Under the pieces are notes generated by a model that worked only from the letters and a program-made list of their open reading frames with translations, was not told where the DNA came from and did no database searches. The position numbers were made by a program, and so were the translations under genes. Positions 3,157 through 61,875 of a DNA stretch of 64,000 bases are shown here, piece after piece; positions within the stretch are counted from its first letter, which is position 1, and every line of letters starts with the position of its first letter. Source of the DNA: a virus; the IMG/VR virus record IMGVR_UViG_3300030202_003006, positions 90,055-154,054 of that record, one strand, 5' to 3'.

Positions 3157-3171
3157 GTATTTATTACAAAA
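3157..3171 (+). promoter_or_regulatory. RTATTTAT promoter-like motif before helicase gene
   Basis: GTATTTATTACAAAA lies 26 bases upstream of the helicase ATG in the short gap after the previous gene. It is one of twelve exact RTATTTAT sites placed 13-26 bases before start codons in this window, and is read as a phage-specific -10-type promoter element. Confidence 0.5.
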
Positions 3172-3182
3172 CAGATTTATAG

Positions 3183-4562
3183 ATGAGTGAAAATAAGAAT
3201 TTTGGATACCTAGGATATAGTTTTCAGTTAAAATTACTTAATTTAACAATTACTGATAATGCATTTTTTCAGTCAATAATAGACGCTATATTACCTAAAT
3301 ATTTTGATAATCAATATTTTAAATTAATTATGCAATTAATTAAAGAATATTATGAAAAATATAACACCGCACCATCGTTTGACGCTTTAGACCAATTAAC
3401 TAGAATTGAGATTTCTTCTGAAATGGCAAGAAAATATATATTTGATATGTTAAAAGAGATAAAAGACGCTGATTTTGCTGACCATTTATTTATTAAAGAA
3501 AAATCCATTAAATTTTGTAAACAACAAGAATTAAAAAAGGCCATTAAAAAAGTTGAAAATATAATGGAAAAAGGTGATTTTGAGAGTTACGATAAATGTG
3601 AGGAGTATATTAGAGATGCTATTAAAATAGGTGATGGTGATTTAGGTAGTTTTGAAATTTTTACAGAATTGGAAAAACTATTAGAAGATGATTATAGACA
3701 TCCGATACCTACTGGTGTGGATGGGTTAGATAATATATTGAATGGTGGACTAGCTAAAGGTGAAATAGGGGTTGTATTAGCACCTACTGGGGTAGGAAAA
3801 ACAACTATGCTAACTAGATTTGCAAATACCGCATTCAACATGGGATATAATGTTCTACAGATATTTTTTGAAGACAATCCAAAAATTATACAAAGAAAAC
3901 ATTTTACTTGTTGGACGGGAATACCAAATGACGAATTAAGTAACCACAAAGAAACTGTATTAGATAAAGCAGATGAAATGAAAAAAACTGGAGGTAAATT
4001 AATATTAAAAAAATTACCATCAGATGAAATGACAATGTTACAAATTAAAAACCAAGTAAGAAAAATTATTTCTGAAGGTACGAAAATAGACATTGTTCTT
4101 ATAGATTATATAGATTGTATATTACCAGACCGTTCATTTAATGATGAATGGAAGGGAGAAGGTTCTGTCATGAGAAAATTCGAAGGTATGTGTCACGAGT
4201 TAAATATTGCTGGTTGGACAGCAACACAAGGTAATAGGAGTTCAATATCATCAGATGTTGTAACTACTGACCAAATGGGAGGCTCAATTAAAAAAGCACA
4301 AGTTGGACACGTAATAATATCTGTAGCTAAAACTTTACAACAAAAAGAAATGGGATTAGCTACCATAGCAATCGTTAAATCCCGATTAGGAAAAGATGGT
4401 GTTATATTTGAAAATTGTAAATTTGATAATGGAACTTTAGAAATAGACACCGAAACTACACAAACTTTCTTAGGTTTTGAGGAGGAAAAAACAAATAGAA
4501 ATAGAGAGAAAATTGCTCGTGCTCTACAAAGACGACAACAAGTAATAAACAAAAATAATTAA
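3183..4562 (+). CDS. Replicative DNA helicase, DnaB/T4 gp41 family
   Basis: The 459-residue protein is a RecA-fold hexameric helicase that would unwind the fork together with the primase encoded at 42850. The N-terminal ~150 residues are helical, as in the DnaB/gp41 collar. Walker A is APTGVGKTTML at residues 200-210. The Walker B strand is IDIVLIDYIDCI, and later come TATQGNRSS and VGHVIISVAKT, which match the conserved Gln- and Arg-containing motifs of the family. Length is close to T4 gp41 (475). It is preceded by a GTATTTAT promoter-like motif and followed after 14 bases by the ribonucleotide reductase. Confidence 0.9.
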   Translation: MSENKNFGYLGYSFQLKLLNLTITDNAFFQSIIDAILPKYFDNQYFKLIMQLIKEYYEKYNTAPSFDALDQLTRIEISSEMARKYIFDMLKEIKDADFADHLFIKEKSIKFCKQQELKKAIKKVENIMEKGDFESYDKCEEYIRDAIKIGDGDLGSFEIFTELEKLLEDDYRHPIPTGVDGLDNILNGGLAKGEIGVVLAPTGVGKTTMLTRFANTAFNMGYNVLQIFFEDNPKIIQRKHFTCWTGIPNDELSNHKETVLDKADEMKKTGGKLILKKLPSDEMTMLQIKNQVRKIISEGTKIDIVLIDYIDCILPDRSFNDEWKGEGSVMRKFEGMCHELNIAGWTATQGNRSSISSDVVTTDQMGGSIKKAQVGHVIISVAKTLQQKEMGLATIAIVKSRLGKDGVIFENCKFDNGTLEIDTETTQTFLGFEEEKTNRNREKIARALQRRQQVINKNN

Positions 4563-4576
4563 TAAAAGAAAAAAAT

Positions 4577-6481
4577 ATGGAAGTATCAAATAAGATTCTG
4601 TCGGATATTACTGTCTACATGAAGTACGCAAAATATATACCGGAACTAAATAGAAGAGAAACGTGGGAAGAATTAGTTACCCGAAATAAAAAAATGCATC
4701 AGAAAAAATACCCTAATTTAAAGGAAGAAATAGAGCAAAAATATAAGTTAGTGTATGATAAAAAAGTACTGCCATCAATGAGAAGTATGCAATTTGGTGG
4801 TAAACCAATTGAGATTAGTCCAAATAGAATCTATAATTGTGCTTACCTACCTATTGACCATATAGATTCATTTCCAGAAACTATGTTTCTACTATTGGGA
4901 GGAACAGGTGTTGGATACTCAGTTCAAAAGCACCATGTAAAAAAATTACCAGTAATCCAAAAACCATATCCAAAAAGAAAAAAAAGATTTTTAATTGGTG
5001 ATAGTATTGAAGGATGGGCAGACGCTATAAAAGTTTTAATGAAAACATACATGAATGGTGGTGGTAGTAGAGTAGAATTTGATTATTCAGATATAAGACC
5101 TAAAGGGGCAAGATTAATAACATCAGGTGGTAAAGCACCGGGACCTCAACCACTAAAAGAATGTTTAGTTAAAATAGAAGGTCTATTAAATCAAAAAGAA
5201 AATGGAGAACAACTTACAACTATTGAAGTACATGATATTATATGTCATATCGCAGACGCGGTACTTGCCGGTGGTATTCGTAGAGCAGCTCTTATTAGTT
5301 TATTTAGTGCTGATGACGACGCTATGATTTCTTGTAAAGCAGGAAATTGGTGGGAATTAAATCCACAAAGAGGTAGAGCAAATAATTCAGCTTGTTTAAT
5401 GAGACATAAAATTACTAAAGAATTTTTTATGGACTTATGGAAACGTGTTGAATTATCAGGAGCAGGAGAACCAGGAATTTATCTAAATAACGATAAAGAT
5501 TGGGGTACAAATCCTTGTTGTGAAATCGCATTAAGACCAAACCAATTCTGTAATCTTTGTGAGGTAAATGTTTCAAATATAGAATCACAAGAAGATTTAA
5601 ATGAAAGAGTAAAAGCAGCAGCCTTCATTGGAACACTTCAAGCAGGTTATACAGCTTTCCACTATCTAAGAGAAATATGGCAAGAAACAACTGAAAAAGA
5701 TGCTCTCATTGGTGTATCAATGACAGGTATTGGTTCAGGAAAAGTATTAAAATATGACATGAAAAAAGCTGCTAGTTTAGTTAAACGAGAAAATACCAGA
5801 GTATCTAAACTAATAGATGTTAACCCATCAGCAAGATGTACAACTGTTAAACCAGCTGGTACCACATCATTAACATTAGGAACATCATCAGGTATTCATG
5901 CGTGGCATAATGATTATTATATTAGAAGAGTTAGGGTAGGTAAAAATGAAGCAATTTATACTTACTTAAATATTAATCATCCAGAGTTAGTAGAAGATGA
6001 ATATTTTAGACCACATGACACAGCTGTAATTAGTATACCACAAAAGGCACCTGTAGGGTCTATATTACGAACTGAATCTCCATTTGATTTACTAGAAAGA
6101 GTAAAAAAGGTAGCTACAGAATGGGTAAGGTCCGGACATAGAAATGGGTCTAATTCTCACAATGTATCCGCAACAATTTCATTAAAAGAAAACGAATGGG
6201 ATAAAGCTGGGGAATGGATGTGGGATAATAGAAAAGCTTATAATGGGTTATCGGTTCTACCATATAATGGAGGTACTTACACACAAGCACCATTTGAAGA
6301 TATCACTGAAGAACAATATCACGAGATGATGAAATCTCTTAAAGAAGTTGATTTAAGTAAAGTTGTTGAATTAGACGACAATACCAACCTAACTGGTGAA
6401 CTTGCATGTGCTGGCGGTAGTTGTGAAGTGGATATCGATGTAAAAACTATGAAAAAAGAAAAAGAATTGAATGAGGCATAA
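4577..6481 (+). CDS. nrdJ: Adenosylcobalamin-dependent (class II) ribonucleoside-triphosphate reductase
   Basis: This 634-residue enzyme reduces ribonucleotides to deoxyribonucleotides for phage DNA synthesis and uses coenzyme B12 to make its thiyl radical. All key residues of the monomeric Lactobacillus-type class II enzyme can be placed. C88 (YNCAYLP) is the first redox Cys. N312-P-C314-C-E316 gives the radical Cys and catalytic Glu, and C325, exactly 11 residues after C314, is the partner Cys. C611/C616 (CAGGSC) is the C-terminal shuttle pair with the CxxxxC spacing. GGTGVGYSVQ lies in the substrate or effector region. No small subunit gene is nearby, consistent with class II. The end overlaps the next gene by 11 bases. 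Confidence 0.92.
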   Translation: MEVSNKILSDITVYMKYAKYIPELNRRETWEELVTRNKKMHQKKYPNLKEEIEQKYKLVYDKKVLPSMRSMQFGGKPIEISPNRIYNCAYLPIDHIDSFPETMFLLLGGTGVGYSVQKHHVKKLPVIQKPYPKRKKRFLIGDSIEGWADAIKVLMKTYMNGGGSRVEFDYSDIRPKGARLITSGGKAPGPQPLKECLVKIEGLLNQKENGEQLTTIEVHDIICHIADAVLAGGIRRAALISLFSADDDAMISCKAGNWWELNPQRGRANNSACLMRHKITKEFFMDLWKRVELSGAGEPGIYLNNDKDWGTNPCCEIALRPNQFCNLCEVNVSNIESQEDLNERVKAAAFIGTLQAGYTAFHYLREIWQETTEKDALIGVSMTGIGSGKVLKYDMKKAASLVKRENTRVSKLIDVNPSARCTTVKPAGTTSLTLGTSSGIHAWHNDYYIRRVRVGKNEAIYTYLNINHPELVEDEYFRPHDTAVISIPQKAPVGSILRTESPFDLLERVKKVATEWVRSGHRNGSNSHNVSATISLKENEWDKAGEWMWDNRKAYNGLSVLPYNGGTYTQAPFEDITEEQYHEMMKSLKEVDLSKVVELDDNTNLTGELACAGGSCEVDIDVKTMKKEKELNEA

Positions 6482-6897: not shown

Positions 6898-6913
6898 GTA
6901 TTTATTATAAAAA
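6898..6913 (+). promoter_or_regulatory. RTATTTAT promoter-like motif before gp25
   Basis: GTATTTATTATAAAAA lies 19 bases upstream of the gp25-like ATG, in a 58-base gap that opens the 35 kb tail module. This is one of the cleanest copies of the motif and is placed where a late promoter would be expected. Confidence 0.6.
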
Positions 6914-6916: not shown

Positions 6917-7366
6917 ATGCCCAATCAAAAATATGGTATAAAATTTCCTTTTACTCAAAGTAGTGAAGGCTTCTTTCTAGGGTTAAATTCTAATCCTGAT
7001 GCTGAAGTTAGGTCAAATTTAATGCATTTAATATTAACCCAAAAAGGTTCTAGATATTTTTTACCAGATTTTGGCACTAATTTGATGAGGTTTTTATTCG
7101 AACCACTAGACTCAGGAACAATATCCTCGATAGATAAAGAAATAAGAAAATCCGTAGCAAAATATATACCTAATCTGGTAATTAACAATATAGAAATCAA
7201 AAATATGGATGAGGTTAGAGAAGAGGATACACTTCTAATTGGAGAAGATAATAGTTTTAGTTTTGCTGGTGAAAAAGAACAAGAATATACAGTAAGAATA
7301 AGAATAGATTATAGTATAGGTAGTTCGGTTTTCGAAACTAAAGATTTTGTTATAATAAATTTATAA
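6917..7366 (+). CDS. Baseplate wedge protein, gp25-like (lysozyme-like fold)
   Basis: The 149-residue protein matches the gp25/W0060 baseplate family. It contains IKFPFTQSSEG near the N-terminus and then the family signature NLMHLILTQKGSRYFLPDFG followed by TNLMRFLFEPLD. gp25 is a wedge protein at the sheath-baseplate junction, where it helps start sheath assembly and contraction. Length agrees with T4 gp25 (132). It begins the structural region and is followed after one base by the gp6-like gene, the usual baseplate order in contractile systems. Confidence 0.9.
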   Translation: MPNQKYGIKFPFTQSSEGFFLGLNSNPDAEVRSNLMHLILTQKGSRYFLPDFGTNLMRFLFEPLDSGTISSIDKEIRKSVAKYIPNLVINNIEIKNMDEVREEDTLLIGEDNSFSFAGEKEQEYTVRIRIDYSIGSSVFETKDFVIINL

Positions 7367-9210: not shown

Positions 9211-9273
9211 CTTTACTAAAAATTAGTAGTATCTATTATTAGTTTTACTACAATAAATATTTATTTAGTAAAG
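9211..9273 (+). repeat. Inverted repeats in the gap before the 1163-residue tail gene
   Basis: The 69-base gap contains a perfect 10-base inverted repeat, CTTTACTAAA (9211-9220) and TTTAGTAAAG (9264-9273), with smaller repeats inside (ACTAA/TTAGT, GTAGTA/TACTAC). The right arm overlaps the 3' half of the promoter-like motif. It could be an RNA stem-loop or a protein-binding site; no T-run follows, so it is not an ordinary terminator. Confidence 0.4.
9257..9272 (+). promoter_or_regulatory. RTATTTAT promoter-like motif before 1163-residue tail gene
   Basis: ATATTTATTTAGTAAA lies 22 bases upstream of the ATG at 9279. It shares the octamer and spacing with the other sites and overlaps the right arm of an inverted repeat. 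Confidence 0.5.
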
Positions 9274-9278: not shown

Positions 9279-12200
9279 ATGCCAAAATCATTTAGAGTAA
9301 GGACAGAAATAGGTAAAGAAAAAAACTTAACATTTGAATTAAAACAAGATTTTGATTTATTAGAAATATTAAGTTTGTCTTTAACACAACAAGATGTGTA
9401 TAGTAGGATGTGCTCAGATTTTGGAGTTGTGGTCGGTAGAGTTATATCTAATGGTGGTTTCGGTATACCAAACGCTAAAGTTTCTATATTCGTACCTTTG
9501 GACTCTGAAGATGAAACCAACCCAATCATAAAACAACTTTATCCTTATACTCAACCATATGACAAAGATGAACAAGGTAAAAGATATAATTTATTAAGTT
9601 CGGAAGAAAATTTTGACTGTCACGTTCCAGTAGGAACTTTTCCAAAACTTAGAAATGTTTTGAGTAATCAAGATGTTAGGTATGTCTATGACAAATATTA
9701 TAAATTTACGGTAAAAACTAATGAGTCTGGTGATTTTATGATATATGGTGTTCCTACCGGAGACCAAAATATTGTGATGGATGTTGACCTAAGTGACATA
9801 GGTTGTTTTTCTTTACTACCTGAAGACTTTAAACAGATGGGTTACTCATCAACAGACTTTGATGGCCCCAAGTTTAAAAGTGATTCTAGTATAGACAGTC
9901 TTCCCCAAATATTAAATCAAACAAAATCAATAGATGTCAGACCTTTTTGGGGCGATGAAGAATTATGTAATGCATCAATAACTAGAGTAGATTTTGATTT
10001 ACAAGATAGTGGATTTAAATTAAAACCTATGTCTATTTTTATGGGTAGTACAGCTACCGATACTGATAAAGACGCAGTTAACTTCTCTTGTAGACCCAGA
10101 AGAGCACAAGGAAATCTATGTAGTTTAGTTTCTCAACCAGGTCTGATAGACGCAATCAGATATACACCATTTTTTAAGCAAGATTCTAACGCTTATACCT
10201 CAACCACATCACCAGGACTTGCTGCTGGAGGTACAGTACCGATATTAGAAAGATACTATTTAGAGGATGGTGGTAGAGTTATTGATAGTACAGGAGCTTT
10301 CTTAGTCCATTTACCGATGAATTTAGACCATGTAATTACTGACGAATTCGGTAATTTGGTTAAGTCACAAGACCCTGAAAAAGGTGTGCCTACGAGAGGT
10401 AGATATAGATTTAGAATTAGACCGGAACAGTCAGCAGGAACAGCAAGAAATAGAAGAAGAGGGAGTTACCTAGTCCCAAACATTAGAGAGTATAATGATG
10501 ATGTTGGGGATAGTTCAGATGGTAACTGGACAAGCATAGACCCAAAATCCTACGCCTTTTCCATAGAATATAGTGATTATCACCCACACGCACAAACTAA
10601 TTTACTGCCTGGAGCATTAGATTATTTTTATGACATGACTTTTAATAGGGTTTATACGGTGTCACAATTTCATGACCATGTTAAACATAATGGTAGGAGA
10701 CAATTTCTAGGTGTTAAAGAAATATTGCCAGAAGAAGAACAACAATGTTCTACAACAGCAGTTCACTTTCCAGTTAACAGTGCTGTTAGAAGGGCAAAAT
10801 TTATTATCTATTTAAATAATTTATTAATAGATTTAATGGGTATTATTTTTATGGCTGTGTCATTAATAGTAGGTATTCTATCTTTTATATTTGGAATAAT
10901 ACTATTACCCATACTTTTATTTTTATATGCTTTATGTGCCATTTTAATATTAATTAATGATGTTATTAGTAGTTTACCTTGGGTAAGTGGACCTTTGGAT
11001 GGTTTAATAGCAGGATTAGGTTGTGATTGTATTTGTGTTAGTGGTAGTGGCTGCTTTGCTTGCGGGCCAGGAAATGTTAACTGTGCTTATTTTGGTTTCC
11101 CACTAGGGTTTGTATTATTTACTCTTAGACAAACCAAATATCCCGAATGTGAAAAATGTACATGTCGTAATACCGCAAATAGTGAAATGCAAGCATTAGC
11201 AAATAACTTCCCATGTCCAGGTGCTCCCCCAACTTATGACTCATCAGATTGTGAAGGTGGATTCTTTAGTAGTTTAGCTCAATGGGGTGGTAATGATTGT
11301 TGTGGAGCACAGGACGAGGCAAGAGTATGTTGTCCAGATTGGTATGGTTTTGACTCTACAACTACTGTAGGTGGATTGGGTGATGTTGATGGACCAGCAG
11401 GTGGGGGATGTTATGTTAAAGTAATGTGCTTTAACCCAGCATGTATCCTCGCAAATCTAAGTATGACAACATTCTTCCAATGGGCAAGAAGACAAAAAAT
11501 AGCAAGTGCTTTATGTAATGGTGTGATGAATTATTTCTGGGAAAACGCATGGGTAAGTGGATTTTTATATCAATTCCAATTTAAAATGAAATTAAAATAT
11601 AGTGTCGCAGATGATAGTTATAATGCAGATTCTAAATGGTGTAAAAAACTAGTTTACATACACCCATCAGAACATGTTGTATATTATAGGTCTACACCTT
11701 TTAAATGGGACTCAGCGACCAATACAGGATACTTTTTAGGTGATGAAGATGGTGTGAGAGGTGGTAACTCTAGTTCAGATAAACATTCTGATGGTGACAT
11801 GAGAAGACACATCCTTTTTCCGACCACAATAGTAGATATGGGTTCTAGAAATCAATGTATACAACAAATATGTTTAGACCCAAACTTTGCTGAAGAATGT
11901 TCAGTTACCGACCAGATAGGACATACCAGTTTCCAAGACTTTACAGAACTAGTTTCAGACATATATAATTTAAAAGCTAATTATTCATTAGCTGCCTTAG
12001 GTAGTTTCTTTACAAGACCAGAAAACGAAATAGGTGGAGATGTCGCACAAGCTATTATGCAAAACTGTATGGTGGGTGTTGTTGGTTATGAAAGTAATAT
12101 GAGTACTACCGGTTGTGTATGTCTTGATGATAATGGAAATTCCGGTATAAATACAGGTACTACACTTGGTGAGTTAATGGAATACCCATACCCTGGTGAT

Positions 12201-12770
12201 GGTAATAGTCCATTTAATGACCCCTATGTACAACATGGTGTTTATGGTGATGGTGCTAGAAGATGGATTCAATGGGAACCTATGTTATTTACAGCAGCTA
12301 CACAAACTATTATGTCCGGTGTTGATTTAATAGAATGTTTAACAGAAGATTTAAGAGCCTCTTCACAACCAGTACCTTATTATATATGGAATTTAGACGG
12401 TGCACCTGGAACACCATTCGGTAGTGATTATAATGATTGGTCAGGAACTTACGGAGACTATAGAAGAAAAACAGCTATTCCTATGAGTCCACTTGGGGCT
12501 ATAAATTTAGGACCAGTATCTACGAATATATGGCCAGAACCTAACCCCCTAACTAGCGATTACTTCCAAGGTTCAAATGCAGGAACTATGGGTGTTAACA
12601 ATAGTTTATTACAACCAGCTAATTACCCACCACTAACACCAACTAGTGCACCAACAATAAACATGACACAACCATTATTTTATTATTTTGGTTTAAGACC
12701 TGGACAAACATCTTACAATACGTTTTTAAGGTTATATGTCGATGAAGAATTAGCAGACGCGGTATTATAA
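9279..12770 (+). CDS. Large Cys-rich baseplate/tail protein with Ig-like domain and a hydrophobic membrane-type segment
   Basis: I do not recognise this 1163-residue protein as a known family. By position after gp25 and gp6 it could be the gp7-type wedge protein, but this is synteny only. An Ig-like/CarboxypepD-regulatory-type fold is suggested at about residues 50-170 (VGRVISNGGFGIPNAKVSIF, later ESGDFMIYGVPTGDQNIV). Residues about 505-565 form a long hydrophobic stretch (MGIIFMAVSLIVGILSFIFG and onward) with two to three membrane-type helices, unexpected in a baseplate protein. It is followed by a Cys-rich block (CDCICVSGSGCFACGPG and further pairs) to about residue 700. The rest looks like a globular virion protein. 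It is the first gene after its own promoter-like motif and overlaps the next start by one base. Confidence 0.8.
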   Translation: MPKSFRVRTEIGKEKNLTFELKQDFDLLEILSLSLTQQDVYSRMCSDFGVVVGRVISNGGFGIPNAKVSIFVPLDSEDETNPIIKQLYPYTQPYDKDEQGKRYNLLSSEENFDCHVPVGTFPKLRNVLSNQDVRYVYDKYYKFTVKTNESGDFMIYGVPTGDQNIVMDVDLSDIGCFSLLPEDFKQMGYSSTDFDGPKFKSDSSIDSLPQILNQTKSIDVRPFWGDEELCNASITRVDFDLQDSGFKLKPMSIFMGSTATDTDKDAVNFSCRPRRAQGNLCSLVSQPGLIDAIRYTPFFKQDSNAYTSTTSPGLAAGGTVPILERYYLEDGGRVIDSTGAFLVHLPMNLDHVITDEFGNLVKSQDPEKGVPTRGRYRFRIRPEQSAGTARNRRRGSYLVPNIREYNDDVGDSSDGNWTSIDPKSYAFSIEYSDYHPHAQTNLLPGALDYFYDMTFNRVYTVSQFHDHVKHNGRRQFLGVKEILPEEEQQCSTTAVHFPVNSAVRRAKFIIYLNNLLIDLMGIIFMAVSLIVGILSFIFGIILLPILLFLYALCAILILINDVISSLPWVSGPLDGLIAGLGCDCICVSGSGCFACGPGNVNCAYFGFPLGFVLFTLRQTKYPECEKCTCRNTANSEMQALANNFPCPGAPPTYDSSDCEGGFFSSLAQWGGNDCCGAQDEARVCCPDWYGFDSTTTVGGLGDVDGPAGGGCYVKVMCFNPACILANLSMTTFFQWARRQKIASALCNGVMNYFWENAWVSGFLYQFQFKMKLKYSVADDSYNADSKWCKKLVYIHPSEHVVYYRSTPFKWDSATNTGYFLGDEDGVRGGNSSSDKHSDGDMRRHILFPTTIVDMGSRNQCIQQICLDPNFAEECSVTDQIGHTSFQDFTELVSDIYNLKANYSLAALGSFFTRPENEIGGDVAQAIMQNCMVGVVGYESNMSTTGCVCLDDNGNSGINTGTTLGELMEYPYPGDGNSPFNDPYVQHGVYGDGARRWIQWEPMLFTAATQTIMSGVDLIECLTEDLRASSQPVPYYIWNLDGAPGTPFGSDYNDWSGTYGDYRRKTAIPMSPLGAINLGPVSTNIWPEPNPLTSDYFQGSNAGTMGVNNSLLQPANYPPLTPTSAPTINMTQPLFYYFGLRPGQTSYNTFLRLYVDEELADAVL

Positions 12771-22850: not shown

Positions 22851-22908
22851 TCTTTTACTATTGGTGTAAAATAAAAAGTTATATGGATATTTATAGTAAA
22901 ATAAGAGA
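22851..22908 (+). repeat. Imperfect inverted repeat flanking the promoter-like motif
   Basis: CTCTTTTACTAT (22851-22862) is mirrored by ATAGTAAAATAAGAG (22894-22908) apart from a small bulge, so the gap could fold into a stem-loop. The right arm again includes the tail of the RTATTTAT motif, as in the gap at 9211-9273. Confidence 0.35.
22887..22901 (+). promoter_or_regulatory. RTATTTAT promoter-like motif after the giant gene
   Basis: ATATTTATAGTAAAA lies 21 bases before the ATG at 22908, in the 64-base gap following the 2454-residue gene. It probably restarts transcription for the second half of the tail module. Confidence 0.55.
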
Positions 22909-23129
22909 TGGGATTAGAAAAAGTTTATACTAGTGGGTGTATACCACCATTAACCAAAGAAGAGGTTTTAATGAATGTATGTGAAAGACCAGAAACTAGG
23001 TCTAATATATTTATTGAAAGGGGTAAAGTTACAGTTTTTGAAACAACACAAAGATTAGGGCAAATACCTAACTTGGGGGAGTTAACATTACACGGATATG
23101 GGTTTTATAAAATTAATAAACAAGCTTAA
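22908..23129 (+). CDS. Small hypothetical protein in tail module
   Basis: The 73-residue protein (start MGLEKVYTSGCIPPLTKEEV) is not recognised. It has two Cys and no membrane segment. It is the first gene after a promoter-like motif and ends 3 bases before the next start, so it belongs to the tail operon and may be a small structural or assembly factor. Confidence 0.7.
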   Translation: MGLEKVYTSGCIPPLTKEEVLMNVCERPETRSNIFIERGKVTVFETTQRLGQIPNLGELTLHGYGFYKINKQA

Positions 23130-35319: not shown

Positions 35320-35334
35320 GTATTTATCATAAAA
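35320..35334 (+). promoter_or_regulatory. RTATTTAT promoter-like motif before 828-residue fibre gene
   Basis: GTATTTATCATAAAA lies 25 bases upstream of the ATG at 35345, in a 47-base gap. It would drive the last group of tail/fibre genes. Confidence 0.55.
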
Positions 35335-46799: not shown

Positions 46800-47114
46800 A
46801 TGGAAACACTTATATGGATTTTAGCAGCTTACGGAATGTCCCAGATACTAGTATTTGGTAGTATATTCGACACCACAAGAGAATGGATAACTAAAAAATC
46901 AACATTTTTTGGAGACTTATTGTCATGTATGATGTGTACATCGACTTGGGTGGGATTTTTCTTTTCCCTCGCATTTTATTCTCCGACATTATCAATGATT
47001 ACAATACCTTATAGTAATATATTTTTTGATGGTATGTTAGCGAGTGGTGGTGTTTGGGCTATTAATGCAATTATTGAATGGTTTGAAGAGAATAAACCAC
47101 CTAAAGAAGATTAA
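46800..47114 (+). CDS. Small membrane protein, DUF1360-like
   Basis: The 104-residue protein has two to three membrane segments, at about residues 3-20, 45-65 and 75-95. In the middle it has LLSCMMCTSTWVGFF, which recalls the L-x-C-x-x-C-x-x-x-W-x-G motif of DUF1360 membrane proteins found in phages and bacteria. Function is unknown. Its stop codon overlaps that of the convergent peptidase gene on the - strand by 4 bases. Confidence 0.65.
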   Translation: METLIWILAAYGMSQILVFGSIFDTTREWITKKSTFFGDLLSCMMCTSTWVGFFFSLAFYSPTLSMITIPYSNIFFDGMLASGGVWAINAIIEWFEENKPPKED

Positions 47115-47898: not shown

Positions 47899-47915
47899 TT
47901 TATAATAATAAATAT
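47899..47915 (-). promoter_or_regulatory. RTATTTAT promoter-like motif on - strand before M23 peptidase
   Basis: Read on the - strand the sequence is ATATTTATTATTATAAA, placed 25 bases before the peptidase start. The correct orientation for a - strand gene supports a directional element. Confidence 0.5.
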
Positions 47916-51271: not shown

Positions 51272-51284
51272 ATATTTATATAAT
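51272..51284 (+). promoter_or_regulatory. RTATTTAT motif immediately before gene at 51285
   Basis: ATATTTATATAAT ends directly at the ATG, 13 bases from its first base to the start codon. This spacing is shared only with the site at 56221. If it is a -10 element, the transcript would be leaderless or nearly so. Confidence 0.35.
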
Positions 51285-51860
51285 ATGAGGAAACAAACAA
51301 GAAAATATTTGTTATATATGTTTGGTAATTGGAAAACCCAACAAATCAATAAAGATATGGTCAATAACATTAAAGATGTCATGGAGACCATAATATATGG
51401 TGATGAATTTAGTTTTGTTACCGGTGATAATGTTATAATAATGTGTCTTAAATCACAGATGAGTTTTGAGGAGATAGAAGATATTCTACATGAATTTTTA
51501 AATGAAAACATTAGTGCTTTTTTCATAATGCCTAAACCTAGAAAATTAGGTTATAGGTTAGAAAAAAATTTAGAGTCACATTTATTTAACCCTAAAGAAA
51601 TAAAACATAAAAAACTAAAGAAAAAAATAAGTCCTGAATTAAGTGAGGCGTTAACAGCACAACTAAAATCATTAGTAGATAGTAGACTCAAATTAATTAG
51701 GAATGTTTTAGAAAATCCACACCAAGTAAAACCAACCCAAAAAATGATTGTTCAAAGCTTTACTTTAGATTCATTATTAGATAAAATAAATGATACAGGG
51801 ATAGAAAGTTTAACTGAATCCGAGTTAGAATTTTTGAATAAATATAATGAAAAAGATTAA
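51285..51860 (+). CDS. Hypothetical protein
   Basis: The 191-residue protein (start MRKQTRKYLLYMFGNW) is not recognised. The first ~95 residues look like a small alpha/beta domain (DEFSFVTGDNVIIMCLKS). The basic middle (KEIKHKKLKKKISP) and helical C-terminus, ending LTESELEFLNKYNEK, suggest a DNA- or protein-associated role. It lies between gp46 and the glutaredoxin-like gene, which it overlaps by 14 bases. Confidence 0.72.
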   Translation: MRKQTRKYLLYMFGNWKTQQINKDMVNNIKDVMETIIYGDEFSFVTGDNVIIMCLKSQMSFEEIEDILHEFLNENISAFFIMPKPRKLGYRLEKNLESHLFNPKEIKHKKLKKKISPELSEALTAQLKSLVDSRLKLIRNVLENPHQVKPTQKMIVQSFTLDSLLDKINDTGIESLTESELEFLNKYNEKD

Positions 51861-52330: not shown

Positions 52331-53131
52331 ATGGCGAAAAATACATTCATAAATCAAAGTGAAATATCACACTACTTAAAAGATGTTAGAAAAAGGAAAG
52401 TTTTAACAGCAGCTAGAGAAAAAGAATTAGCAAAATTAATACAAAATCCAGAAACTACACCTAGTGTAGTAGCAGAAGTACACAAAGAATTACTAGAAGG
52501 TAACCTAAGATTTGTTATTAGTGTAGCAAAAGACTACCAAGGACAAGGGGTTGATTTACCAGATTTGATAAATGAAGGTAATTATGGTCTTTTAAAAGCA
52601 ATTAATAATTTTGATTGGGATAAAGGATTTAGATTTATATCATACGCGGTCTGGTGGGTTAGACAATCAATTCTACAATGTCTTAATGAAAATGCAAGAA
52701 CTATAAGACTCCCAGTTAATATAATCCAAGAACTACAGAGAGAGAAAAAGAAAATAGGTCAAGAAATAGATAAATTTAATAGTAAATTAGCTCTTTTACC
52801 CACAACAATCAATTATGATAAACCAATAAATGAAGAAGGCGATACATTAATAGACTTAATTATCAATCCAGATGCGGATAGCCCAGAAGATGCTTTTAAA
52901 GATGAAGTTAACCTAAAAGATGAATTATACAAATTAATGAATGTTTTGGATAATAGGGAGAGAGACATAGTTGTTGATTATTATGGATTAAATGGTAATA
53001 CACCAATGACACTCCAAGAAATAGGTGATGAATTAAGTTTAACCAAAGAAAGAGTGAGGCAAATTAAAGAAAAAGCTTTAAGAAAATTAAGAAATGATAG
53101 TTACAATCTGTTAGACTATCTAAGTGAATGA
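52331..53131 (+). CDS. Sigma-70 family RNA polymerase sigma factor, Bacteroidota sigma-A-like
   Basis: The 266-residue protein redirects RNA polymerase to selected promoters. It lacks region 1.1 but has the rest. Region 1.2 is at about 8-40 (SEISHYLKDVRKRKVLTAA). Region 2 is at about 54-125, with NLRFVISVAKDYQGQG, DLPDLINEGNYGLLKA and FISYAVWWVRQSILQCL. A shortened region 3 follows, then region 4 at about 200-262 (MTLQEIGDELSLTKERVRQI). The sequence is strikingly like the primary sigma of Bacteroidota, not like T4 gp55, and suggests capture of a host rpoD. It is preceded by a host-type promoter and is the likely reader of the RTATTTAT motifs. Confidence 0.92.
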   Translation: MAKNTFINQSEISHYLKDVRKRKVLTAAREKELAKLIQNPETTPSVVAEVHKELLEGNLRFVISVAKDYQGQGVDLPDLINEGNYGLLKAINNFDWDKGFRFISYAVWWVRQSILQCLNENARTIRLPVNIIQELQREKKKIGQEIDKFNSKLALLPTTINYDKPINEEGDTLIDLIINPDADSPEDAFKDEVNLKDELYKLMNVLDNRERDIVVDYYGLNGNTPMTLQEIGDELSLTKERVRQIKEKALRKLRNDSYNLLDYLSE

Positions 53132-53146
53132 TATTTATCTATAAAA
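53131..53146 (+). promoter_or_regulatory. RTATTTAT promoter-like motif before membrane protein gene
   Basis: ATATTTATCTATAAAA begins at the base after the sigma gene's stop and lies 22 bases before the GTG at 53153. It would separate transcription of the downstream lysis and structural group from the sigma gene. Confidence 0.5.
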
Positions 53147-53152: not shown

Positions 53153-54472
53153 GTGAAAAAAAGATTATTTCCATTGATAATAACATTAGCAGCGTTAGCG
53201 GTATCCGGTAGTGCAGCATTCTATTCTGTATTTGGACTGAGTAAATTGTTTGCAGGAGCAAGCACACAAGTAATCATAATGGCAGGTAGTTTAGAATTTG
53301 CAAAGTTAGTCGTTGCTTCTTTATTATATCAATATTGGGATACTATAAATAAAGCACTTAGAACTTACTTATCAATCGCATGTTTTATTTTGATAATTAT
53401 TACGAGTGGTGGTATTTATGGTTTCCTATCTGGAGCATACCAATCCACAGCAACTCAATCAGAGTTATTAGATAAATCATTAGCTATACTAAATCAAAAA
53501 CAAATTAGGTTTGAAGAAACTAAAGAAGACCTAACACTAGAAAAAACCCAATTAAATAAATCAATATCGGAGTTAAGAGTTTCACTCTCAAATCCAAGTT
53601 CGGTATCATATTATGATAAAGAAGCTGAACAAGTAATTACAACCACATCTAGTTCTACAAGAAGAGCATTACAAGCAGAATTAAAAAGTACAATTGAGGA
53701 TAGAGATGCAGTCAATATAAAACTAGAAGCTATATTAGACTCAATAAATAAAACAGATATAGCATTATTAGATAAAGAAATAGATAATGAAGCTGAAAGA
53801 GAATTAGGTCCCCTCAAATACCTTGCTGAAACTACTGGAAAACCTATGGGTCAAGTAGTTAATTGGTTTCTATTATTAATTATATTTGTATTTGACCCAT
53901 TAGCAATAGCATTAGTAGTAGCAGCTAACATGGCTTTCGCACAAATAAAAAAGAGAGAACCTGAAGTAAAAATGTCTGTACCAGATGGGTTAGAATTTAA
54001 TACACCATATACTATGGAAGAAGTGTCAGCAGCATTTGCTAGACAAGACGCTAAAAGAAAAAAAATAGAAAAAGAAGATTATTTTAGTGATTTAGAAGAT
54101 TATATTAAGGAAGATTTAGATATAGATGAAGAAAGAATGAATATCATAGGACAAAACGGAAATGACGGTCTACACTATGAAGAACCAAAAGAAAAAAATA
54201 TCATCACCTCAACAGAAAATTTAACAGAACAACAAATACAAGACTTAAGTAGGGAGATAGGTAAAAAAGAAAAACCAATAAAAGAAGACCCAATAAAACC
54301 AACTACAGAAGAACTTGAAAAATTAGCAGAAGCTCTTAATATTAGTTATAATGAAGATGATGTGCCGTTAGATAGGTTAACAGACACAACACAAACATTA
54401 ATACATAAGAATATAGAAAAAACACAAAGTGATGGTGAAGAAGAAAGAAATCTCAAGTATAAAGGTAGATAA
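53153..54472 (+). CDS. Multi-pass membrane protein with large coiled-coil loop
   Basis: The 439-residue protein starts at GTG. It has three N-terminal membrane segments (FPLIITLAALAVSGSAAFYS, VIIMAGSLEFAKLVVASLL, LSIACFILIIITSGGIYGFL), then about 110 residues of coiled coil. A fourth membrane segment (WFLLLIIFVFDPLAIALVVA) follows, then a charged cytoplasmic tail of about 165 residues. I do not recognise the family. The layout suggests an inner-membrane complex. It is the first gene after a promoter-like motif and overlaps the amidase-like gene by about 40 bases. Confidence 0.78.
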   Translation: MKKRLFPLIITLAALAVSGSAAFYSVFGLSKLFAGASTQVIIMAGSLEFAKLVVASLLYQYWDTINKALRTYLSIACFILIIITSGGIYGFLSGAYQSTATQSELLDKSLAILNQKQIRFEETKEDLTLEKTQLNKSISELRVSLSNPSSVSYYDKEAEQVITTTSSSTRRALQAELKSTIEDRDAVNIKLEAILDSINKTDIALLDKEIDNEAERELGPLKYLAETTGKPMGQVVNWFLLLIIFVFDPLAIALVVAANMAFAQIKKREPEVKMSVPDGLEFNTPYTMEEVSAAFARQDAKRKKIEKEDYFSDLEDYIKEDLDIDEERMNIIGQNGNDGLHYEEPKEKNIITSTENLTEQQIQDLSREIGKKEKPIKEDPIKPTTEELEKLAEALNISYNEDDVPLDRLTDTTQTLIHKNIEKTQSDGEEERNLKYKGR

Positions 54473-55846: not shown

Positions 55847-56221
55847 ATGAAAAAATTAGTATTAATATTATTATTGCTTACTCCAGTATGGGCCTTTACT
55901 CAAACACATACTTTTACTGAAAAAGAAGTGGTTGAAATGGACTCATTATTCCAAGTGTACGAACAAACTGATAGTTTACAAAAACTAGAGATTAAGTTAC
56001 TTAGGAACCAAATAATAAACTATAGAACATTACATACCCAAGACAGTCTACATATTGCTTTTATGAATGAGAAGACAGACTTACTAAATCAAAGAATAGA
56101 ACTATATATAGATTTAACAAAAGAATTAAGGCCAAAATGGTACAATAAACCTGCAGTTCACTTCTTTTTAGGTGCAGCGACAATTGTTACGGCTTCTTGG
56201 GTCGTATCTAACGTTAAGTAG
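55847..56221 (+). CDS. Exported coiled-coil protein with C-terminal membrane anchor (spanin-like topology)
   Basis: The 124-residue protein starts with a clean signal peptide (MKKLVLILLLLTPVWAFTQ). It continues as a coiled coil (residues about 25-95) and ends with a membrane helix (AVHFFLGAATIVTASWVVSN). No lipobox Cys follows the signal, so it is not a classical unimolecular spanin. The extracytoplasmic coiled coil anchored in the inner membrane nevertheless fits a Rz- or spanin-type lysis role next to the amidase-like gene. The call is by topology and context. Confidence 0.68.
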   Translation: MKKLVLILLLLTPVWAFTQTHTFTEKEVVEMDSLFQVYEQTDSLQKLEIKLLRNQIINYRTLHTQDSLHIAFMNEKTDLLNQRIELYIDLTKELRPKWYNKPAVHFFLGAATIVTASWVVSNVK

Positions 56222-56233
56222 TATTTATAGTAT
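56221..56233 (+). promoter_or_regulatory. RTATTTAT motif immediately before gene at 56234
   Basis: GTATTTATAGTAT ends directly at the ATG, a 13-base spacing like the site at 51272. It starts at the final base of the preceding stop codon. Confidence 0.35.
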
Positions 56234-56476
56234 ATGGCATTAACTAATACTGATAAAAAAGAAATTGAAGTAATAGCTCGAAGAGAGATTAAAAATTTCA
56301 TGTCTAAACCCCAGTTTAAAAACGAGGTTCAAAAACTTGTTGCGGATGAGATTAAAAAAGGGAGAAACACTAGAAGTGAAATTGTAGATATAGTTAGTAA
56401 AGTTATGTTAGAACTATATAAAACATTCTGGTTTAGACGTAGTATGTGGCAATCAGAAATAAAAAGAGTTAGGTAA
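56234..56476 (+). CDS. Small helical protein, unknown
   Basis: The 80-residue protein (MALTNTDKKEIEVIARREIK start, ending FWFRRSMWQSEIKRVR) is predicted all-helical with a basic C-terminus. It resembles small conserved proteins of large marine phages in general character, but I cannot name a family. It is one base from the next gene, with which it is probably co-transcribed from the motif at 56221. Confidence 0.7.
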   Translation: MALTNTDKKEIEVIARREIKNFMSKPQFKNEVQKLVADEIKKGRNTRSEIVDIVSKVMLELYKTFWFRRSMWQSEIKRVR

Positions 56477-57147: not shown

Positions 57148-57162
57148 ATATTTATAATAAAA
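57148..57162 (+). promoter_or_regulatory. RTATTTAT promoter-like motif before gene at 57170
   Basis: ATATTTATAATAAAA lies 22 bases before the ATG in a 26-base gap. It is a clean copy with typical spacing. Confidence 0.55.
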
Positions 57163-57169: not shown

Positions 57170-58126
57170 ATGTCAATATTAGCAACTAGTCCGGATTTAG
57201 ATAAAATTATATCAAAAGCAATCAACAGAATTGGTGAAAGTCACGCGTTAACTCGTGATAATTCTGGTGTAGAAATGAACGCAAAAGAAGTAGAAGAAGA
57301 TAGAGTAAAGTTTAGAAACGAATCTACAAATAAAGTTATCGAAGAATCACTAAAAGCTGCTGCTGATGAAATGGCAGAAAGAATGGTATTAGAGAATACA
57401 ATAGAAGGTATGATAAAAGATGTTGTTAGTAAACAACCAGAAAATAACAACCTTCAAGAAGATAAAGACAATGAAACTCCAGTGGTTAATGAGACTACAA
57501 AGGAAGTTATTAAAAAAATAGTAAATAAAAAATTAAAACAATCAATACAGGAAGTAAAGAAAGGAGATAAAGTACCTGGATATGATGCTTATGAAAAAGC
57601 ACATAAAAAGTCTAAACAAGAAACAGACCAATACCACAAGGACACAAAAAAGAAGTTTAGTGAATATGAAACTTTTGAAGGTAATGATAATCCAGATTTT
57701 CCACACCAAGAAATGTCAAAAACTAACAACAAGGGTGCTGACGGACAATACCAGTACTATAGAAATAATGATGAGGATGCTGAGTTTATAGAAGATTTTG
57801 CTCATCCAGGACTTATAGATTTTGATATTAATAATATAAACATGGAAAGACTAACTAGTTATTTAGAAGGTTCTTCTGAAACAGGTAACGCACAAAAAGA
57901 TGAAAATGGTGAAGATTTAGGTAATGTGGTTTCTAGTGATTTAGGTGAAAAAATGTTAAAATCGTCAGAGAGAAGAAAAGAAAAAATAGCCGCTAATAAA
58001 GCTTCTATGACAAATTTAAGAGGGTATACACCGGATGTACAAAAAGTAAAACAGGTTAAAGAAGATGTTACTACTGATATTGATAAAATGAAAAAATTGT
58101 GGATATACAATAAAACAACACAATAA
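57170..58126 (+). CDS. Charged helical protein, possibly virion-internal or scaffold
   Basis: The 318-residue protein is very rich in Lys, Glu, Asp and Asn, mostly helical, with no Cys, signal peptide or membrane segment. A less charged patch (DAEFIEDFAHPGLIDFDINN) sits near residue 210. Composition resembles phage scaffold or internal head proteins, but no family is recognised. It has its own promoter-like motif. Confidence 0.7.
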   Translation: MSILATSPDLDKIISKAINRIGESHALTRDNSGVEMNAKEVEEDRVKFRNESTNKVIEESLKAAADEMAERMVLENTIEGMIKDVVSKQPENNNLQEDKDNETPVVNETTKEVIKKIVNKKLKQSIQEVKKGDKVPGYDAYEKAHKKSKQETDQYHKDTKKKFSEYETFEGNDNPDFPHQEMSKTNNKGADGQYQYYRNNDEDAEFIEDFAHPGLIDFDINNINMERLTSYLEGSSETGNAQKDENGEDLGNVVSSDLGEKMLKSSERRKEKIAANKASMTNLRGYTPDVQKVKQVKEDVTTDIDKMKKLWIYNKTTQ

Positions 58127-58874: not shown

Positions 58875-58878
58875 TAAA

Positions 58879-59231: not shown

Positions 59232-59233
59232 AT

Positions 59234-59813: not shown

Positions 59814-60013
59814 CGGACTGTGCAGAGATATCGGAAAAAATAAAATTAAATCCATTTCTAAAACAGACCACTATTACCGTACACATAGATTCCATAAACT
59901 ACCCTTATTTATTAAGTGAGGTGGAAGAGTTTGTAAAAATGAGAGTTGATAAGTCTAACCCTACAATATCAATAATGATTAATGACGTAGAATTTTTATT
60001 TGTAAAAACTTAA
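59780..60013 (+). CDS. Hypothetical protein
   Basis: The 77-residue protein (MDEVEKNLRFLTDCAEISEK start) has a beta strand block (KQTTITVHIDSINYPYLL, TISIMINDVEFLFV) and no known motif. Its stop overlaps the stop of the convergent - strand gene by 4 bases. Confidence 0.6.
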   Translation: MDEVEKNLRFLTDCAEISEKIKLNPFLKQTTITVHIDSINYPYLLSEVEEFVKMRVDKSNPTISIMINDVEFLFVKT

Positions 60014-60651
60014 TAAGTAAATTGTTTTCGTAAAAAAGACCTATTATACCCTACATTAACTAATATATCATATAATTGTTTTCTTTGTATTGTATTTGTA
60101 TCTGTAACAAATAAACAATCATAACGACCTACACTTAAAAATTCTAATTCTATTAGTTTTAATAGTCTTACAGCGTCAGATACCGTCTTTAAACTAAATA
60201 AATTAAATCTATCATCTTTTTGGACAATAAGTTTATTGTTAAGTGTAAATATTTGTTTAAATTCCCTATCAGATAATGATAAATAAGACTCTATAAGGGA
60301 ATCAAAAGATATTTTATTTTTAGTGGTGTGGTCATAAATTTTCTCTTCTTTCCAGTACGGTAACATTTTAATTATGTTATAATTAGAATTACCTATGTTA
60401 ACTTTCTTAGTTCTACCTATAGAATCTTTAACATACACACTCTCTTCACTATCTTCTGTAGTTACAATAGCCAACTCAAACATAACCTTTTTACGAGATA
60501 TATAATCTGTTATGAATTTAGGCTTTTTTTCTGTGATAAATTTATTATATTTCTCTAAAATACTTTTTTTATTGTTGGATGAAAAGAATACTTTTACTCT
60601 TTCACCATTCTTAAATAAAACTATTTTATATTTATTTCGATTATATGACAT
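60010..60651 (-). CDS. Hypothetical protein on - strand
   Basis: The 213-residue protein begins MSYNRNKYKIVLFKNGERVK with basic beta strands, and its C-terminal half is helical (SDAVRLLKLIELEFLSVGRY, TNTIQRKQLYDILVNVGY). It is not recognised. Its start codon abuts that of dnaJ on the opposite strand (CAT|ATG at 60649-60654), leaving no intergenic space. Confidence 0.72.
   Translation of the reverse strand: MSYNRNKYKIVLFKNGERVKVFFSSNNKKSILEKYNKFITEKKPKFITDYISRKKVMFELAIVTTEDSEESVYVKDSIGRTKKVNIGNSNYNIIKMLPYWKEEKIYDHTTKNKISFDSLIESYLSLSDREFKQIFTLNNKLIVQKDDRFNLFSLKTVSDAVRLLKLIELEFLSVGRYDCLFVTDTNTIQRKQLYDILVNVGYNRSFLRKQFTY
60628..60643 (+). promoter_or_regulatory. RTATTTAT promoter-like motif before dnaJ, inside the opposite gene
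   Basis: ATATTTATTTCGATTA lies 24 bases upstream of the dnaJ ATG within the 5' coding part of the - strand gene. The octamer and spacing match the intergenic copies although the sequence is also coding. Confidence 0.4.
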
Positions 60652-61635
60652 ATGAATAAAGATTATTATAAAACTTTAAATATCAATAGAAATGCCACTC
60701 AGGATGAGATAAAAAAGGCATTTAGAACTCTATCTAAGACTCATCACCCCGATAAAGGTGGTGATGAAAACACATTTAAAGAAATGTCAGAAGCTTATGA
60801 TACTTTAAGTGATGAAAAGAAGAGGCAAAAATATGATATGGGTGGAAAAAATCCATTTGGTGATTTTGGAGGCGGGGGTCCTTCACCGGACGACTTATTC
60901 AATCAATTTTTTGGGCGTAGACAACAAAGAAGACAGGTAAGAAAAGGAAGGAATCTTAATATCCCATTAAAGGTTACCTTAGAAGATGTTTACCTGGGTT
61001 CAGTTAAAACTTTAAGATATCGTAGAAATGTGGTGTGTAAAGACTGTACGGGTACCGGTGGGAGAACACAACAGTGTACTTTTTGTAATGGGAAAGGTAG
61101 AAAAGAAACTATTGTTGGTAACGCTTTCTTTAAACAAATGAGGACCGAAATCTGTAACCCTTGTAAGGGAACTGGTAGATTGGTTATAAAAGCATGTAAT
61201 TCTTGTGTTGGACAAGGTTATACAGACGAAGATAAAACGATAGATTTTAAAGTACCACATAATTTACAAACCGGTCAACAATACTCATTTAGATTAATAG
61301 GTGATGAAATAGTTAATGGTGAACCCGGTGACCTATTCCTAGAAGTGGTTATACTACCCCACCAACACTTTAAATTAATAGGTAAAGATTTAATATATGA
61401 ACCTAATATATCTGTTATCGATTTAATGATTGGTACACGAATAGATATCCCTCATTTTGATGGTAAAATAACTGCAACTGTTAAACCAGATAGTAACCTT
61501 CATGACTCTTTCCAAGTTAGAGGCAAAGGGATGTTAAATGGAAACCTCATCATTAAACCAAAGATTAGTTTACCAAAAAATTTAAATTCACAAGAAGTAA
61601 AATCGTTACAAGAGATTAAAATAAATCGACAATAA
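60652..61635 (+). CDS. dnaJ: DnaJ-type co-chaperone
   Basis: The 327-residue protein has a complete type I DnaJ layout. A J domain with H32-P-D34 (HHPDKGG) is followed by a Gly/Phe-rich linker (GDFGGGGPSPDDLFNQFFG). The zinc domain has four CxxC repeats (CKDCTGTGG, CTFCNGKG, CNPCKGTG, CNSCVGQG), and two C-terminal substrate-binding domains follow. It would stimulate host DnaK. With the FKBP at 1212 this phage carries two folding helpers. It is shorter than E. coli DnaJ (376). Confidence 0.92.
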   Translation: MNKDYYKTLNINRNATQDEIKKAFRTLSKTHHPDKGGDENTFKEMSEAYDTLSDEKKRQKYDMGGKNPFGDFGGGGPSPDDLFNQFFGRRQQRRQVRKGRNLNIPLKVTLEDVYLGSVKTLRYRRNVVCKDCTGTGGRTQQCTFCNGKGRKETIVGNAFFKQMRTEICNPCKGTGRLVIKACNSCVGQGYTDEDKTIDFKVPHNLQTGQQYSFRLIGDEIVNGEPGDLFLEVVILPHQHFKLIGKDLIYEPNISVIDLMIGTRIDIPHFDGKITATVKPDSNLHDSFQVRGKGMLNGNLIIKPKISLPKNLNSQEVKSLQEIKINRQ

Positions 61636-61852
61636 AGGATATTATTGTAATATAACCAATGATTATTGGAAACCACCCGAAAATAAAAACTAAAATATGT
61701 TCTTTAATGGTGTAATCGAATACCGATAAATCCAGATGTTCATCTACAAATTCTTTTCTTTTTTGTTTCATACCATTTAAAGTATCTTTAAAAGACGGTA
61801 CAAAATCTTTAATATTCTTATCTAATTTTTTCTTACAATTACTACAGCCCAT
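61616..61852 (-). CDS. Small membrane protein with N-terminal CxxC
   Basis: The 78-residue protein starts MGCSNCKKKLDKNIKDFV, with one CxxC. It continues with a charged helix and ends with a membrane helix (ILVFIFGWFPIIIGYITIIS). Its end overlaps dnaJ by 20 bases. It has its own - strand RTATTTAT motif. Function is unknown. Confidence 0.65.
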   Translation of the reverse strand: MGCSNCKKKLDKNIKDFVPSFKDTLNGMKQKRKEFVDEHLDLSVFDYTIKEHILVFIFGWFPIIIGYITIISFIVDLF

Positions 61853-61859
61853 ATTTTTT

Positions 61860-61875
61860 CTTTAAACATAAATAC
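61860..61875 (-). promoter_or_regulatory. RTATTTAT promoter-like motif on - strand before small membrane protein
   Basis: Read on the - strand the sequence is GTATTTATGTTTAAAG, 23 bases before the start at 61852. It is in the correct orientation for this gene. The rest of the 82-base gap to 61935 holds an A/T-rich stretch without a clear copy for the + strand gene. Confidence 0.5.

Follow-up and report, generated by a model that had tools for sequence, protein, structure and literature searches.

An octamer with the core TATTTAT, found upstream of genes in an uncultured aquatic phage, resembles a modified T4 late-gene signal

Does an octamer that recurs in front of phage genes mark their promoters and, if so, which sigma factor reads it? 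The question is raised by a 64-kb stretch of virus DNA (here termed the window; positions 90,055–154,054 of the IMG/VR virus record IMGVR_UViG_3300030202_003006), in which the octamer RTATTTAT precedes twelve genes on their own strand. The initial annotation proposed a phage-specific promoter set of the -10 type, with no visible -35 element and similar to T4 late promoters, read by the sigma factor encoded at 52331. The first part of this proposal is in agreement with the evidence presented below, whereas the assignment to the sigma factor at 52331 is not. We consider it probable that the octamer belongs to a T4-type late promoter read by a gp55-like sigma factor, with one class of sites predicted to give rise to leaderless mRNAs.

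Position and strand of the octamer

The twelve octamers were found at the coordinates and on the strands initially annotated (Table 1), the distance from the first octamer base to the start codon being 13 bases at two sites and 19–26 at the other ten. Eleven of them fall wholly or for the most part in sequence without called genes, those at 53131 and 56221 overlapping the preceding gene by one base. Helicase, gp25 and DnaJ were confirmed among the targets, and the gene annotated as a peptidase shows endolysin/metallo-endopeptidase PHROG matches.

Over the whole window the octamer is as frequent as expected by chance (32 exact copies, 20 of them beyond the twelve sites, against an expectation of 28.9 ± 4.9, with 34 of 100 shuffles giving at least as many). 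The total was thus rejected as evidence, and the claim depends on position. A comparison of noncoding with coding sequence, suggested as a check in the initial annotation, gave a noncoding density about 22 times the coding one (12 octamers in 1,689 noncoding bases and 20 in 62,311 coding bases; Fisher test, both strands, p = 1.5e-11), the twelve noncoding copies being eleven of the annotated sites together with the minus-strand octamer at 9253 that overlaps one of them. In the 45 nt preceding each of the 56 starts of the window, the octamer occurs 12 times in sense and 4 times in antisense orientation; dinucleotide shuffles gave a mean of 1.22 starts and a maximum of 5, and none out of 2000 reached 12. 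Of the 21 ways in which the core letters can be arranged, TATTTAT gave the highest score at these starts (12), with 3 for the runner-up. At 9253–9264 and 51268–51279 the octamer and its reverse complement share bases (ATAAATATTTAT), the motif being there present on both strands (minus-strand octamers 9253–9260 and 51268–51275).

The finding was replicated in the part of the 155,892-base record that had not been seen when the motif was proposed (record positions 1–90054). Counts cover the record up to its last 1.8 kb, and starts less than 100 nt from a stretch end were dropped. This held-out part contains 36 octamers, 22 in 6,136 noncoding bases and 14 in 83,918 coding bases (p = 3e-17), the coding ones being 5 sense and 9 antisense. 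A same-strand start follows within 60 nt in 19 of the 22 noncoding cases. Of 82 held-out starts, 17 have a sense octamer within 45 nt and 3 an antisense one (shuffle mean 1.98; 0 of 2000 shuffles reach 17). The longer form RTATTTATNNTAAAA is present in 11 copies in the whole record, on the + strand only, and its reversed pattern, used as a control, gave zero matches in the same record; the octamer at L001:16324 (+) is a full RTATTTATNNTAAAA match located 120 nt upstream of a called start.

TATTTAT is moreover the top enriched 7-mer before the starts of the window, of the held-out part, of Flavobacterium phage immuto (147 starts of stretches L016 and L018, L017 excluded) and of the cyanobacterial (Microcystis) phage Mel-JY01 (39 starts, 37 kb).

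Targets and conservation

In the held-out part, the octamer precedes the genes for the terminase large subunit, the head maturation protease, the tail sheath and the tail tube, the last two with long gaps between octamer and start codon (39 and 41 nt), as well as a gene with a head-tail adaptor match. For many target genes the PHROG comparison gave no match. In immuto, HTATTTAT is found upstream of the terminase, portal, sheath and tube genes.

Two IMG/VR scans yielded 160 loci around genes of the window. After removal of orthologs with at least 98% identity and of genes with fewer than three orthologs remaining, VTATTTAT was found within 60 nt upstream in 187 of 302 orthologs of the motif-bearing window genes against 11 of 675 for the non-motif genes, counts in which the orthologs share ancestry and the draws are not independent. 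For the motif-bearing genes of the held-out part, the relatives with the motif were 13/14, 7/10, 65/77, 49/50, 31/46, 8/15, 12/13 and 10/10; for the non-motif genes they were mostly zero, with the exception of those at 16452 (8/18), 12414 (5/62) and 5142 (3/14).

The octamer is nearly confined to starts with room upstream. In the record it is present at 28 of 67 starts where the intergenic distance is at least 11 nt and at 1 of 71 where it is 10 nt or less; in 78 loci of relatives (397 of 1,754 starts with near-duplicate upstream sequences dropped), the motif is found at 186 of 518 starts with upstream room and at 7 of 839 without. This distribution fits promoters at operon heads and not a signal of translation initiation, as might be proposed for a motif that stands near start codons at preferred distances. 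Besides being nearly absent between abutting genes, the motif has a bimodal spacing that reaches 41 nt, and some octamers stand directly behind terminator-like hairpins, as judged by eye without a terminator scan; we thus give a translation signal hardly any probability.

Motif structure and comparison with known late promoters

Thirty of the 31 start-proximal sites of the record were aligned, the flanks alone being informative since the core was fixed by the search. An A/T-rich stretch follows the octamer, with an A-run at positions 12–14 (first octamer base taken as 0); in a pooled and dereplicated set of 109 leadered sites (972 of 2,706 starts dropped), A accounts for 87%, 83% and 91% at positions 12, 13 and 14. 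No upstream column exceeds 0.25 bits among the 30 sites, so that no -35 element is visible. In the 78 relatives' loci (gaps up to 30 nt) the base before TATTTAT is A in 133 cases, G in 25, C in 19 and T in 3. The consensus is VTATTTAT(A), a -10-like element without -35 box.

The T4 late octamer TATAAATA is located at -13 to -6 (PMC1524935; here and below, papers are cited from excerpts). The form TATTTATA differs from it in the two central bases alone, where the AA of T4 is replaced by TT. The likeness extends to a single A/T-rich, -10-like octamer with no -35 partner, A/T-rich sequence downstream, a position before virion genes, and a diverged protein with sigma region 2. There are also differences: the gp55-like sigma factor of the record (234 aa) has an added C-terminal domain in comparison with T4 gp55 (185 aa), and the gaps measure 4–5 or 11–19 nt in 27 of the 31 sites against 14–28 nt in T4 (7 of 13 genes examined). 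In sense orientation, TATAAATA itself precedes 0 of the 56 window starts, and 6 of the 82 held-out starts against 3.4 expected. For this reason the motif was classified as a variant, apart from T4 late promoters in the strict sense.

Variation of the late octamer is known in other phages. While the top 7-mer before 28 T4 starts is TATAAAT, before 36 starts of the Prochlorococcus phage P-HM1 (32 kb, L105) it is CTAAATA, which is the late motif given for Aeromonas phage Aeh1 (PMC1524935). This Aeh1-type motif uses other bases and is likewise a variant of the T4 late octamer, and P-HM1 carries a gene annotated as gp55. A further likeness is with immuto and Mel-JY01, where a gp55-like sigma factor of the same group occurs together with TATTTAT before late genes. 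Among the titles and abstract openings listed from open-licence PMC papers, no description of the motif was found; it may have been published elsewhere.

Spacing classes and predicted leaderless mRNAs

The gap between octamer and start codon is bimodal. It measures 4–5 nt in 7 of the 31 sites of the record, 6–10 nt in none, 11–19 nt in 20 and 27–41 nt in 4. In 88 gene families (334 loci, without dereplication, each family counted once and starts with gaps above 30 nt dropped), the modal gap is below 3 nt in 2 families, 3–6 in 23, 7–10 in 2, 11–20 in 45 and 21–30 in 16. Under an even spread over 3–20 nt, so few families at 7–10 would be found with p = 5e-6 and so many at 3–6 with p = 0.027. In several families the orthologs switch between a gap of 4–5 and one of at least 11 nt.

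The terminase large subunit gene belongs to the short-gap class: after dropping 9 of 80 loci, whose start or upstream sequence is off the contig, RTATTTAT stands 4 or 5 nt before the ATG in 64 of 71. The other seven loci have CTATTTAT at gap 5 (one), gap 10 (two), gap 33 (one) or no motif (three).

The short-gap class, terminase included, predicts leaderless late mRNAs, a consequence that the initial annotation did not draw from its two sites with 13 bases. In genes with gap 5, position 13 is the A of the ATG. T4 spacing would put the transcription start at this position or at 14, according to the alignment chosen for the two octamers. The rule described for Flavobacterium johnsoniae, with transcription starting 4–5 nt after the -7 element (PMC6847099), leads to about the same position. 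In bacteria, a -10 box approximately 10 nt before the ATG has been read as a sign of leaderlessness (PMC3160421, PMC12340547); these precedents have the same layout, but here the element is of the phage late type and its spacing is kept gene by gene over many relatives. Leaderless mRNAs are in themselves no novelty among phages, whose transcripts are often leaderless according to a passing statement in PMC5312081. In F. johnsoniae, leaders exceed 10 nt in 87% of the transcripts for which a probable promoter was identified, with a mean of 33 (PMC6847099).

Shine-Dalgarno (SD)-like sites were detected at 9 of 141 starts of the record, 2 of 36 in immuto, 17 of 23 in T4 and 20 of 36 in Mel-JY01; these counts refer to the listed starts and not to whole genomes, and were obtained with a looser SD pattern after a strict one had recovered 4 of 23 in T4. 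The low number in the record, together with a terminase whose best cultured match among those listed is that of immuto (27% identity), suggests a Bacteroidota-like host. The motif is not tied to leaderlessness, since Mel-JY01 differs from the record in having gaps of 14–37 nt in addition to frequent SD-like sites; immuto differs in the gap of its terminase gene (18 nt).

Sigma factor candidates

Two genes of the record code for sigma-like proteins (Table 1). The gene at 52331 codes for a complete phage sigma factor of the RpoD type, in which regions 1.2, 2 and 4 are all present, and a region-4 match was also found in a 210-kb relative (G001), which would fit the reader initially proposed. No motif was found upstream of this gene in 16 orthologs. 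A sigma factor with region 4 would be expected to use a -35 box, and none is visible in the sites of the record. The two candidates are separated by co-occurrence. In immuto and Mel-JY01, whose genomes are complete (160 and 190 kb, respectively), the motif is accompanied by a gp55-like gene (E 2e-15 and 1e-14, respectively, with the model of the gp55-like group; KNV73_gp118 at L017:28174–28872 in immuto), and no match to PF04545 (region 4) was obtained at E up to 0.001. The sigma factor at 52331 was thus rejected as reader, a role we regard as quite improbable for it.

The likely reader is a remote gp55-like sigma factor encoded outside the window. It contains the second and weaker Sigma70_r2 match of the record (27044–27214, minus strand), and the best PHROG for this 234-aa protein is 234, the T4 late sigma family. 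Eighty-three proteins of this kind were collected, 18 of them dropped at 90% identity or more, and 28 of the remaining 65 aligned. At E up to 1, PHROG 234 is matched by 26 of the 28 and Sigma70_r2 by 22 (best E 4e-5 each). Of the T4 gp55 residues reported to read the promoter, F86, Y97 and T99 (PMC7892883), the first two align with F and Y in 28/28 members; T99 aligns with G in 28/28, with Q in immuto and with S in Mel-JY01. The predicted model has a sigma-2-like fold, and the structural matches listed for it are almost all sigma factors (sigma-E, Z 8.2; T4 gp55, 7d7c_F, Z 7.2, root-mean-square deviation (rmsd) 7.6 over 130 aligned residues). A PDB profile search with the group gave six weak matches (three SigA, T4 gp55 and two unrelated), and a PDB sequence search with the protein of the record gave a single unrelated one.

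Of the 83 loci with the gp55-like gene, a single one has TATTTAT in the 90 nt upstream of this gene, whereas 78 have it in the 70 nt that follow the gene. The regulator is thus not under its own promoter and the next gene is, with its ATG 4, 5 or 6 nt behind the motif in 73 of 83 loci. This next gene (L002:6748–7125, minus strand) codes for a small protein whose N terminus is mostly M-x-R-P-x-K-K across loci.

The added C-terminal domain of the gp55-like protein is helical and, modelled alone, reaches a predicted local distance difference test score (pLDDT) of 81.4. Its best structural match has Z 5.1, with mixed families among the matches and a sigma -35-binding domain (3hug_E) at Z 3.4; no Foldseek E was below 1.7, no clear sequence family was found, and the PDB sequence matches were unrelated. 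With the full-length model, extracytoplasmic function (ECF) and other sigma factors match over most of the domain, but with rmsd values of 11–19. In view of these values and of the unclear matches of the domain alone, an identity with sigma region 4 would be a possibility at most.

Other components were also searched for. A phage-encoded RNA polymerase was discarded as reader, no Rpb2_6 match being present in the record; a search with PF00940 was uninformative, with zero matches even in the controls. No gp45-type clamp (Pfam DNA_PPF, E up to 10) was found in the record, G001, immuto or Mel-JY01 with a search that retrieves the T4 clamp and that a diverged clamp would escape. A search for the bacterial beta clamp (PF02768), which a diverged clamp would likewise escape, gave no match in the record, immuto, Mel-JY01 or T4.

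Points against and remaining alternatives

Several observations weigh against a T4-type late promoter read by the gp55-like protein. As to the motif, three held-out noncoding octamers, at L001:563 (-), L001:16324 (+) and L002:13277 (+), have no called start within 60 nt. Conservation is weak at 22887 (0/3) and 53131 (17/79), and weak or mixed also at 60628, 47915 and 9257, and the helicase is an unexpected late target. When L017 is added to the immuto stretches (own gene calls, 45-nt windows), a block of early type, TTTAGGT, ranks first and TATTTAT ninth. With the T4 frame superimposed on TATTTATA, the transcription start would fall at position 14, which in the genes with gap 4 is 2 nt too late. 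A start one or two bases earlier in these genes is supported by the conservation of their ATG and N termini. Antisense octamers near starts also exceed expectation, both in the held-out part (13 against 3.8 in 60-nt windows) and in relatives (130 of 1357 starts, against 200 sense). This antisense excess and the chance-level total of the window would fit a functionless artefact of A/T-rich composition; such an artefact has a practically negligible probability in view of the held-out replication (0 of 2000 shuffles) and of the ortholog conservation (187/302 against 11/675).

As to the sigma factor, the relationship with T4 gp55 is remote. The PHROG 234 match of the protein of the record has E 0.0075; that of immuto ranks third at E 0.5, and the Mel-JY01 protein has none. 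The model of the group did not find T4 gp55 at E 0.001 (E 0.075), and the hhalign probability was 36. The predicted structure is of low confidence (pLDDT 67.6), its best Foldseek E is 0.04, and for helical folds the search tool itself rates Z values of about 8 as middling.

The host sigma factor might also read the motif, as a variant of its own -10/-7 element, which in Bacteroidota is TAHHTTTG. The two have the first TA and some of the T positions in common, and the host appears to be Bacteroidota-like for the reasons given above (terminase match, few SD-like sites). The Microcystis phage Ma-LMM01, which lacks gp55, has a reported late motif ending in TATTMT that was attributed to the host sigma factor (PMC5780444), which also speaks against a phage-encoded reader. 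However, the octamer has A at the second T of the host TTTG, and the base after it is G in 1 of 30 sites; the TTTG ending was thus not found, although the octamer used to select the sites by itself rules TTTG out at that place. A few separate TAHHTTTG-like sites were seen before other genes, by inspection without an enrichment test, and the cyanobacterial phage Mel-JY01 carries an identical motif. A reading by the host sigma factor is therefore very improbable in our opinion.

Proposed late promoter system

According to the explanation we favour, the octamer VTATTTAT, with the A/T-rich stretch and the A-run at positions 12–14, would be the -10-like element of a T4-type late promoter. The gp55-like sigma factor, whose own gene lacks this promoter, would most likely bring the host RNA polymerase to the octamer, and virion, packaging, lysis and some other operons would be transcribed from it late, a timing we infer from gene function. 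Transcription would most likely start at an A of positions 12–14. At 7 of the 31 sites of the record (those before the terminase large subunit gene, the gene that directly follows the sigma gene, 51285 and 56234, among others) this A would coincide with the A of the start codon, giving a leaderless mRNA; a leader of about 5–15 nt is predicted at 20 sites and a longer one at 4.

A broader proposal, which we regard as unlikely, is that a widespread aquatic T4-like lineage has rebuilt late transcription, with a naturally fused late sigma factor (a gp55-type sigma-2 domain joined to the C-terminal domain), an altered octamer, no gp45-type clamp and leaderless mRNAs for a large part of the late genes. 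In such a rebuilt system the C-terminal domain could replace gp33 or sigma region 4 on the polymerase, and leaderless late genes, including that of the packaging motor, could suit hosts without SD pairing. A review of T4 late transcription asks why a fused late sigma factor was never found (PMC2988020), and the extra C-terminal domain makes this question testable.

For aquatic T4-like phages, of which a large group is uncultured and immuto is a cultured relative, the motif would provide a late-promoter code that can be tested. TATTTAT goes together with one gp55-like group, and TATAAATA or CTAAATA with classical gp55, which would be a natural specificity switch that can be compared with the known gp55-promoter structure. 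If true, a conserved leaderless packaging gene would offer a clean system for translation initiation without SD sequences.

Features of the window and other observations

Coordinates of the octamer sites and of the two sigma genes are listed in Table 1, where the gap is the number of nucleotides between the octamer and the start codon.

Table 1. Octamer sites of the 64-kb window and sigma factor genes of the record
Feature	Position	Strand	Downstream gene or identity	Gap (nt)	Orthologs with motif and remarks
Octamer	3157..3164	+	DnaB-like helicase, 3183-4562	18	32/38, gap 16-19 in 30 of those 32
Octamer	6898..6905	+	gp25 baseplate wedge gene, 6917-7366	11	73/90; gap 11-12 in 63, gap 5 in 7
Octamer	9257..9264	+	9279-12770 (1163 aa), behind two baseplate genes	14	25/35; gap 13-17 in just 11, gap 46-47 in 14
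Octamer	22887..22894	+	22908-23129	13	0/3
Octamer	35320..35327	+	35345-37831	17	Full RTATTTATNNTAAAA match; fewer than 3 orthologs below 98% identity among collected loci
Octamer	47908..47915	-	Metallo-endopeptidase/endolysin-like gene, 47111-47890 (-)	17	2/4; PHROG matches peptidase/endolysin
Octamer	51272..51279	+	51285-51860 (ATG)	5	Predicted leaderless; 9/14, all at gap 4-5; antisense copy in 5/14
Octamer	53131..53138	+	53153-54472 (GTG start)	14	17/79
Octamer	56221..56228	+	56234-56476 (ATG)	5	Predicted leaderless; 12/15; gap 4-5 in 9, gap 15-17 in 3
Octamer	57148..57155	+	57170-58126	14	Sense motif 8/9, antisense motif 6/9
Octamer	60628..60635	+	DnaJ gene, 60652-61635	16	6/12, gap 16 throughout; site within minus-strand open reading frame 60010-60651
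Octamer	61868..61875	-	61616-61852 (-)	15	3/3
RpoD-like sigma gene	52331..53131	+	Pfam Sigma70_r4 6.7e-17, r2 6.8e-16, r1.2 2e-5		
gp55-like sigma gene	record 26645-27346, L002:7142-7846	-	234 aa, outside the window		

The ribonucleotide reductase encoded at 4577–6481 of the window matches PF21995, the insertion domain of B12-dependent reductases. In immuto, many small genes of stretch L017 (record 50001–100000) share a promoter-like block around TATATTTAGGTATCAATAATTAAAAC with GTTG upstream, which is probably an early promoter; over L016–L018, TTTAGGTA is found before 16 starts and AGGTATCA before 9. Finally, at L004:14028–14085 (record 72528–72585) a divergent gene pair has, on the minus strand, a gene with a host-type TATCTTTG element 4 nt before the ATG and, on the plus strand, a gene with the late octamer 5 nt before the ATG.

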